From assembly GCA_001542995.1 (NCBI GenBank), contig LFLA01000024.1:1-64000 (forward strand): a stretch of DNA of 64,000 nt. The letters are read 5' to 3'. Shown one piece after another: positions 15,780-63,615 of this stretch. Every line of letters starts with the position of its first letter. The stretch's first letter is position 1. The notes beneath the pieces were generated by a model. That model did not search any database. It was given only the letters and a program-made list of their open reading frames with translations, and was not told where the DNA came from. Source of the stretch: Nitrospina sp. LS_NOB (GTDB lineage: Bacteria > Nitrospinota > Nitrospinia > Nitrospinales > VA-1). The translations under genes were made by a program, and so were the position numbers.

Positions 15780-15914
15780 GAGCTTTGCATAAGTCAAAAA
15801 AAACAGAAAAGCGAGATTCTGAACGCAGTGAAGACGTGATGTTTCACCTAAGCTTTCGTGCCCCGCAGGGGTAATCTCGCTTTTCTGCTTTATCGACTTA
15901 CACAAAGGTCTCTT
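15780..15914. repeat. MITE-like repeat, family 1, compact copy
   Basis: Ends are CTTTGCATAAGTC on the left and, inverted, CTTTGTGTAAGTCGATAAAG on the right. The interior has the inverted modules GAAAAGCGAGATT and AATCTCGCTTTTC, so the whole 135 bases could fold into a long hairpin. It sits in the KS-ACP gap and has no coding potential. Confidence 0.8.
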
Positions 15915-52235: not shown

Positions 52236-52461
52236 CCCCTCTTAACCGAGACCTTTGCATAACCCGAGATTACCCATTCCGGGCACGAGTGCTTAAGTTA
52301 AATATCACGTCTTCGTCACCTTGTTCCTCAGAATGACAAAATGGCCCAGTATTGTCATGCTGAACAAAAGGATGACAAACTGGCGTTTCTTGTCATTCTG
52401 AACGTAGTGAAGAATCTCGCTTTTCTGCTTTATCGACTTATGCAAAGGTCCCCTCTTAGCC
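52236..52461. repeat. MITE-like repeat, family 1, with 12-bp direct repeats
   Basis: The element starts ACCTTTGCATAA and ends with the inverted TTATGCAAAGGT. Inside are CGTCTTCGTCACCTTGTTCC, repeated GTCATTCTGA modules and GAATCTCGCTTTTCTGC. CCCCTCTTAACC (52236-52247) and CCCCTCTTAGCC (52450-52461) flank it as an 11/12 matching direct repeat, consistent with a target-site duplication. Confidence 0.8.
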
Positions 52462-54251: not shown

Positions 54252-54415
54252 TTACACGTTTTCCCTGAAACCTCAATGTCTAAAAGAGTTGTAAATTTTC
54301 ATGTTACACCCAGAATGAGCATTTTAAAAGTGCATCTAGCTGCTCATTGTAAATCTTAACAAGGTTGTTGCCTGGGCAAAACATAGCCAAGCGGAACCAC
54401 CTGAACGAGATTGCA

Positions 54416-54572
54416 TTGTCATTCTGAACGCAGTGAAGAATCCCCAGGTTAGTGCAAGGCGAGATCCTTCGTCGCCTTGTTCCTCAGAATGACAAACTGG
54501 CATTTCTTGTCATTCTGAACGCAGTGAAGAATCTCGATTCTTCGATTTTTCGACTTACGCAAAGGTCTCTCA
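54416..54572. repeat. MITE-like repeat, family 1, overlapping a coding end
   Basis: Contains GTCATTCTGAACGCAGTGAA twice, CGTCGCCTTGTTCCTCAG, and the end CGACTTACGCAAAGGTCTC. The left CTTTGCATAA end is missing. The right half provides the last ~27 codons of the neighbouring FGE-like gene. Confidence 0.75.
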
Positions 54573-58579: not shown

Positions 58580-59142
58580 AAGTTTTTAACTTTTATAAAG
58601 TTATTTAAATATGGCGGCTAAAAATGATACCAAATGGCCAAGGCTTTCTCAACAGAGTAAGTAACAAAGAATCAAAGGTCAAGACCAAAAAAGATAAAAA
58701 TTACAAATGAACCGGCGAATTCAACTTGCCTGAATAATCTGGGAGACAGCTATCGCTTAAAAGGCGATCTGAAAAAAGCCCAAGAAATCCTTTTAGGGTC
58801 CCTGGAGGTCAATACAAATGGAATGCTCACTCATTTCAATCTGGGAGTCCTTTACCAAACAGAAGGAAAGTTTCAAAAGGCTATTGACTCATTTCAAAAA
58901 TCATTAAATATCATCCCTCTTATGTGGAGACCTTTGCATAAGTCGATAAAGCAGAAAAGCGAGATTCTTCACTACGTTCAGAATGACAATACTGGGCCAT
59001 TTTGTCATTCTGAGGAACAAGGTGACGAAGACGTGATATTTTTCCTTAAACTTCATGCCCCGCAGGGGTATGTGATATACTCTTCATTATCCGTGAACTG
59101 GAAACCTGTGAGCCGCTTGCCAAAGCGGGATGTGGGATAAGC

Positions 59143-59514
59143 ATGACACCAAAAGACGCTATCAAAATGCTGTCGCCACCACGCTACTGCGCCGAGGTGA
59201 TTCATTTTGCCAATATCAACAAAGCGCAACCAGTGTGGTGGCTGGACATTCCACTCAAAAAATTGGATAAGCATGACTTTTTGGTGTTCGCATTATGCAA
59301 TAAGAAACAACAGTTGGAAGTTCTTGGAACGCCGACTTCGTTTCTACAGGAAAACTTGCATAGGTTGTCTGTTCGAAAAGACAGAGGCGTTATCAGTTTA
59401 GAGCTGTCATGCCAGCCGCAGAATTTATTTGAATGCGTCCGCCCGCGGAACTGCGGCATTTCATTTGCACAATTCCAGAGAGACACGCTGGAGATGCCAA
59501 ATGCGAACATCTGA
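59143..59514 (+). CDS. hypothetical protein carried in the insertion (123 aa)
   Basis: A 123-residue soluble protein (YCAEVIHFANINKAQPVWWL, HDFLVFALCNKKQQLEVLG, CGISFAQFQRDTLEM). Family not recognised. Its last codons overlap the ATG of an ABC-ATPase fragment, so at its source it was the upstream gene of a transporter operon. It is probably a passenger copied into this site. Confidence 0.55.
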   Translation: MTPKDAIKMLSPPRYCAEVIHFANINKAQPVWWLDIPLKKLDKHDFLVFALCNKKQQLEVLGTPTSFLQENLHRLSVRKDRGVISLELSCQPQNLFECVRPRNCGISFAQFQRDTLEMPNANI

Positions 59515-59599
59515 CGATACGCTACTAGAAGTAAAAAACATCTCGCTGTCCTTTGGCGGGGTAAAAATGCTCAGCAAACTTCATGCCCCGCAGGGGTAA
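59501..59599 (+). pseudogene. 5' fragment of a LivG-like ABC transporter ATPase
   Basis: ATG 59501 opens MRTSDDTLLEVKNISLSFGG, the typical first strand of branched-chain-amino-acid-type ABC ATPases. It is cut after GGVK by repeat sequence and ends KLHAPQG. Confidence 0.65.
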
Positions 59600-59866
59600 T
59601 CTCGACTTATGCAAAGCCCTCTCTTATGTGGAGGCGCATTACCAGCTTGCTAACACCCACCTTAAGACCAATAACAAGGAATCGGCCAGGTAATCCCTGG
59701 AAAAAGCACTTCAGGCTGATCCTGATAATTTAAAGTTCCAGGAACTTTATAATAAAGTATTGGCCTCGTAAAAATTTGCTCAGAATGAGGCAGGGGAAAT
59801 CCCCCGCTCATAATTTTCCAATAGGAAAACTTGCAGTCCTAAATTCTCCGGATGTACAATACCCGA

Positions 59867-63445: not shown

Positions 63446-63615
63446 GACCTTTGCATAACCCCGGATTTACTCCTTCGGGGCACGAAGGTTAAGGAAAAAT
63501 ATCACGCCTTCGTCACGTTGTTCCTCAGAATGACAAAACAACCCTTTATTGTCATGCTGAGCTTGTCGAAGCATCTCGTTTTTCTGCTTTATCAACTTAC
63601 GCAAAGGTCTCTTCA
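63446..63615. repeat. MITE-like repeat, family 1
   Basis: Left end AGACCTTTGCATAA, right end complement in ACGCAAAGGTCTCT. Modules CGCCTTCGTCACGTTGTTCC, GAATGACAAAACAACCC, GTCATGCTGAGCTTGTCGAA and CATCTCGTTTTTCTGC. Short CATAG matches flank both sides. The remainder of the 63198-63752 gap holds no recognisable gene. Confidence 0.78.

Follow-up and report, generated by a model that had tools for sequence, protein, structure and literature searches.

A single gene-bearing copy of a MITE family with IS5-family ends in a TPR lipoprotein gene of Nitrospina sp. LS_NOB

Results

The window, i.e. the whole stretch of 64,000 nucleotides that was analysed (the start of contig LFLA01000024.1 of Nitrospina sp. 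LS_NOB), contains the remains of a TPR lipoprotein gene, between the two parts of which lies an element with inverted ends (Table 1). Inside this element are a hairpin module, two REP-like units and a segment, called cargo below, that consists of a complete ORF and the beginning of a LivG-like ABC ATPase gene. No transposase gene is present inside the element. A sequence-only reading of the same DNA had described a whole gene and an ATPase start in this place, and both are indeed contained in the element.

Table 1 Features of the element and of the interrupted gene (positions in the window).
Feature	Position	Strand	Remarks
TPR lipoprotein pseudogene, left part	58707..58926	+	5' two thirds missing (2.3-kb deletion)
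Left target-site duplication	58918..58926	+	TCTTATGTG, most simply 9 bp; inside 13-bp repeat 58917-58929
Whole element	58927..59621	+	695 bp; ends GAGACCTTTGCATAAGTCGA ... TCGACTTATGCAAAGCCCTC
Left terminal inverted repeat	58932..58946	+	CTTTGCATAAGTCGA, 15 bp, exact
Hairpin module	58978..59013	+	TTGTCATTCTGA, common to the MITE family
First REP-like unit	59032..59070	+	CGTGATATTTTTCCTTAAACTTCATGCCCCGCAGGGGTA; the one normally found in the long MITE form
Second tandem REP-like unit, left half	59071..59088	+	TGTGATATACTCTTCATT
Cargo	59089..59575	+	487 bp; lacks both inverted ends and a target duplication
Complete cargo ORF	59143..59514	+	123 aa; distant relatives in Pseudomonas aeruginosa and Lacinutrix
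LivG-like ABC ATPase, first 25 codons	59501..59575	+	ATG at 59501; overlaps upstream stop by 14 nt; cut by REP-like unit
Second REP-like unit, right half	59576..59598	+	AAACTTCATGCCCCGCAGGGGTA; identical to 59048-59070
Right terminal inverted repeat	59602..59616	-	inverted CTTTGCATAAGTCGA, 15 bp, exact
Right target-site duplication	59622..59630	+	TCTTATGTG
TPR pseudogene, right part	59631..59771	+	in-frame TAA; sense codon at this place in relatives

The direct repeat of 13 bp and the inverted ends of 15 bp that had been reported earlier were both found to be exact. The two copies of the direct repeat (CTCTTATGTGGAG) occupy 58917-58929 and 59621-59633. The 64-kb window contains only one further match to this repeat at up to 2 mismatches. 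The extent first proposed, 58917-59633, was right in that an insertion is located there, but comparison with the autonomous ISs described below sets the limits of the element itself at GAGACC (58927) and CCCTC (59621). The true duplication would most simply be the 9 bp TCTTATGTG, a length deduced from two of these ISs, which are flanked by CTTCGTAAG and GTTCTAAAA, respectively. The 13-bp repeat is best read as this 9-bp duplication prolonged by chance identity, the additional positions being one chance base and a GAG common to the target and the end of the element. In relatives, the duplicated sequence is present as a single copy at the empty site. With its exact ends and perfect target repeat, the MITE looks young.

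The proposal that the insertion splits a TPR gene was confirmed by searching the joined flanks in related genomes. A continuous match across the junction was observed in eight genomes of the same genus (79-88% identity), and the empty site was also found in one genome of another genus. In 9 of these 9 genomes the reading frame of the TPR lipoprotein gene runs through the site without a break, with about 280 codons where its 5' end is on the contig. As the gene order around the site is also conserved, these comparisons indicated that the insertion is real. In the window, the TPR gene has three lesions besides the insertion. These are a 2.3-kb deletion (junction at about 58700-58708, by comparison with the same-genus genomes G010 and G015), which removed the 5' two thirds of the gene together with two small upstream genes encoding probable secreted proteins; a 1-bp deletion, causing a frameshift, just before the insertion; and the in-frame TAA. 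Any of these lesions may have preceded the insertion, which may thus not have been what destroyed the gene.

The sequence-only reading had also taken the element for a member of a MITE-like repeat family. The 15-bp end CTTTGCATAAGTCGA occurred 64 times at up to 1 mismatch in the genome (2.65 Mb in 26 contigs), versus 0 times for a reversed-pattern control, and a BLAST search of the genome with the element gave 78 matches, almost all of which fall within its first 141 or its last 40 bases. These results established that the element belongs to a large repeat family, which is abundant in this genome and has members in several relatives from across the order. In length, end-paired copies mostly fall in the range 110-380 bp; they are assembled from a limited set of short modules, namely a GTCATTCTGA hairpin, a GACGAAGAATCTCG module and sometimes a 41-bp REP-like unit (consensus TGTGATATCCTCTTCATTAAACTTCATGCCCCGNAGGGGTA), which is present in the long MITE form (about 164-167 bp). 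Perfect flanking direct repeats of 7-13 bp were observed in 20 of 45 end-paired elements (the three autonomous ISs included), as compared with 1 of 200 mismatched flank pairings. Many copies sit in sequences of the CCCTCCC...GGGAGGG type, and strictly palindromic targets were weakly enriched (22% versus 7% of control pairings); no such target was seen at the insertion site of 58927-59621. The terminal inverted repeat of the family was not found in viral contigs, and a search of Rfam gave no match.

Like prokaryotic MITEs, the members of this family are short, multicopy and devoid of a transposase, and they have inverted ends, target duplications and terminal sequences shared with an autonomous IS. 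Unlike typical copies, which measure 110-380 bp here, the copy in the window reaches 695 bp, owing to its cargo.

The absence of a transposase had led to the suggestion that movement must occur in trans, and a transposase with the same terminal repeats was indeed found. Three transposase loci in the phylum are bracketed by the ends of the family: L127 (about 1322-2473), L128 (551-1760) and L129 (1029-2191), the last being from the same genus as the window genome. These ISs are about 1.15-1.2 kb long. Identity to the L127 transposase is 71% for that of L128 and 73% for that of L129; all three match the NCBIfam model NF033581 (IS5 family) at 253-263 bits, for a cut-off of 140, and carry the Pfam domains DUF772 and DDE_Tnp_1 of DDE transposases. 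Duplications of 9 bp were found just outside GAGASC...GSTCTC in L127 (CTTCGTAAG) and L128 (GTTCTAAAA), and no clear target duplication at L129, so that the 9-bp length was seen in two of only three autonomous copies found. The IS903 group of the IS5 family makes 9-bp duplications too (PMC3281130, Table 2). The window element shares with these IS5-family ISs the terminal sequences GAGASCTTTGCRTAAG, and it differs from them by the lack of a transposase and by an interior that consists of short repeat modules together with a likely foreign fragment. Its ends are common to autonomous ISs encoding an IS5-family transposase, and a likely IS5-family partner with 9-bp duplications is now identified for this MITE family.

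In the genome of the window itself, we found no match to PF01609, a domain with many matches in the phylum. This genome holds an IS5-type transposase as a relic alone: 100 codons of it remain at C23:20783-21031, beside a MITE of the family and cut by it. The relic suggests that this genome probably harboured an autonomous copy in the past. More broadly, the region C23:20783-21331 (L063) appears as an IS5-type transposase relic interrupted by MITEs of the window element's family. Taken with the matching ends, the IS5-family transposases of the relatives lead us to infer that the element moved in trans; mobility of this kind is well supported, and these ISs are the likely mobiliser of the MITE family. 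A partner of the IS982 family (PF13612) was also considered; its two weak matches in the genus were cross-matches to IS5-type transposases.

As observed directly in the sequence, the cargo is separated from the MITE by a nested boundary, which is formed by exact 23-bp repeats (59048-59070 and 59576-59598). It sits inside the second of two tandem 41-bp REP-like units, with at most 1 bp of overlap at the junctions. The stretch 59071-59088 agrees with the left half of the unit in 17 of its 18 bases, whereas the best of 2000 shuffles reached 12 of 18; this left half has 20 copies in the genome at up to 2 mismatches, versus 0 for the reversed control. Unsplit tandem units exist elsewhere in the genome (L195, L190), and without the cargo and the extra unit the element would measure about 167 bp, as the usual long MITE does. 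The cargo would thus be a fragment inserted by illegitimate recombination or template switching rather than by transposition.

We considered the possibility that the cargo is a mobile element itself, one that duplicated 23 bp of MITE sequence on insertion. Exact direct repeats of this length do bracket it, but the 18 bp that follow the left one are the left half of a REP-like unit, and the two 23-mers belong to tandem units of a kind that is tandem elsewhere too. These facts largely refute a separate transposon with a 23-bp target duplication, and as the cargo has neither inverted ends nor a transposase nor a second copy, we consider this explanation very unlikely. The structure is not a composite transposon bounded by two MITEs, for a single left and a single right MITE part are present, and the inner repeats are REP-like units. 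Very unlikely, too, is a decayed autonomous IS in which the cargo replaced the transposase gene. The ends are the same as those of the IS5-family ISs, but the interior outside the cargo consists of standard MITE modules common to dozens of gene-free copies and retains no transposase remnant.

The 41-bp unit resembles REP-like intergenic palindromic repeats, with its CCCC-NNN-GGGG hairpin and its solo and tandem copies across the genome; unlike these, it also serves here as a MITE-internal module and as the insertion point of the cargo. It is itself modular, its left half TGTGATATCCTCTTCATT running into differing sequences from one point in the same genome (e.g. L187, L188, L022, L195). In L187, L188 and L022, the differing continuations start right after ...CTTCATT. 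This indicates a general module junction, and the state that preceded the insertion is therefore reconstructed, not seen.

The cargo ORF matched no Pfam, NCBIfam or PADLOC family. Its relative in Pseudomonas aeruginosa, a hypothetical protein, is 39% identical over 94 aligned positions and is not adjacent to an ATPase gene. A weak and distant relative was found in Lacinutrix venerupis (L186, 2639-7963) between the gene of an McrBC component and a DEAD-box helicase gene, a neighbourhood hinting at a restriction or defence context. The fold of the cargo protein was predicted with moderate confidence (pLDDT 77), and no PDB entry matched the model below E = 0.2; the top matches, restriction endonuclease domains, were not significant. 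For the 25 ATPase codons, the resemblance is to the N-terminal ends of LivG-type ABC ATPases and reaches 60-65% at most; the E-values are marginal, and the best matches lie in proteobacterial plasmids.

The captured genes had been thought to come from a chromosomal donor operon. No such operon was matched in the same genome or in 76 other genomes of the phylum, and these 76 genomes contained no relative of the cargo ORF. No close relative of this ORF was present in about 85,000 species. Altogether, the search for a donor, which covered the own genome, 60 relatives, the phylum, plasmids, phages, viral contigs and two genome-contig scans, yielded only the distant relatives from P. aeruginosa and Lacinutrix. 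This absence, along with the single 25-codon resemblance, points to a likely foreign origin of the cargo; against it speaks the G+C content of the cargo, which is no different from that of its host.

A cargo that has no relative in the phylum, is bracketed by repeats and lies in a genome of 26 contigs might also result from misassembly, a fragment of another organism having been joined into the MITE via short repeats. We judged this improbable, since repeats of 23 bp are short by the standards of usual reads and k-mers, the two outer junctions agree with the empty site in relatives, and the G+C content of the cargo (47.0%) equals that of the window (46.5%).

By BLAST, the loaded form, i.e. MITE plus cargo, is single-copy in its genome, and of the end-paired elements examined, none but the window element has a recognisable gene. 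The claim that the family carries captured chromosomal genes was thus not supported: one gene-bearing copy was seen, the boundary of its cargo is nested in a REP-like repeat, and neither a second loaded copy nor a donor operon was found in the genome, nor such an operon in the phylum.

Discussion

Our favoured explanation, which we consider probable, is that a non-autonomous IS5-family MITE was moved in trans and that a fragment was separately inserted into its internal REP-like unit. The parent would have been a MITE of the common long kind (about 167 bp) in which the internal 41-bp unit had become a tandem pair. A transposase acting in trans would bind ends of the GAGASCTTTGCRTAAG type, move the element and duplicate 9 bp of the TPR gene. 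Separately, illegitimate recombination or template switching, without a transposase, would have placed a foreign fragment of 487 bp, comprising the small gene and 25 LivG-like codons, in the second REP-like unit. What is best supported is that an IS5-family MITE moved in trans and carried, or later received, a foreign scrap at an internal repeat.

Mobile insertion cassettes are, by definition, non-autonomous elements with a passenger gene between ends recognised by a transposase (PMC3913671). The window element has this anatomy, as the ORF 59143-59514 is enclosed in 58927-59621, with a target duplication and no transposase. It resembles in these respects MIC231 of Bacillus cereus, mic-qnrD and the TIME-COMPs, and differs from them in that a nested boundary of its own sets off the passenger, that a gene fragment accompanies it and that the loaded form is known as one copy. 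We also considered that capture of the cargo came first and that the loaded 695-bp element later jumped as one piece into the TPR gene, perhaps having come from another replicon or cell. MIC231 and mic-qnrD provide precedents (PMC3913671), the exact ends and perfect target repeat give the MITE a young appearance, and a cargo gene that lacks relatives in the phylum fits arrival with a mobile element. Such a history is possible but less probable in our view: the loaded form is single-copy, with no second cargo locus, no other member of the family with a recognisable gene was seen, and the nested boundary of the cargo means that one transposition and one later insertion suffice.

Gene-carrying non-autonomous elements had been described as rarely documented in bacteria. 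MIC231, mic-qnrD and the TIME-COMPs are already established, so that even proof of movement as a cassette would not make the phenomenon new. The present case illustrates how a MITE can become a candidate mobile insertion cassette in one step, through ordinary insertion of a fragment into an internal repeat. Movement of loaded copies, if shown, would make this a simple capture mechanism; at present it is a documented single event. It would be a gene-capture route needing neither integrase nor composite structure if the REP-like unit in MITEs were a hot spot for the capture of stray DNA, the loaded MITEs being spread in trans by the IS5-family transposase, but we find this reading quite unlikely. 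Nothing shows that the MITE family carries genes around, and cargo is not a feature of the family. The window element is a tidy example of known processes.

Besides this element, four more copies of the MITE family lie in the window, at 15783-15907, 52253-52449, 54415-54566 and 63448-63608. On contig C7 of the same genome, a compound of 1,022 bp (L117, 1451-2472) consists of MITE modules around about 240 bp of no recognised module; this stretch could be a second cargo, or the compound could be two neighbouring elements.
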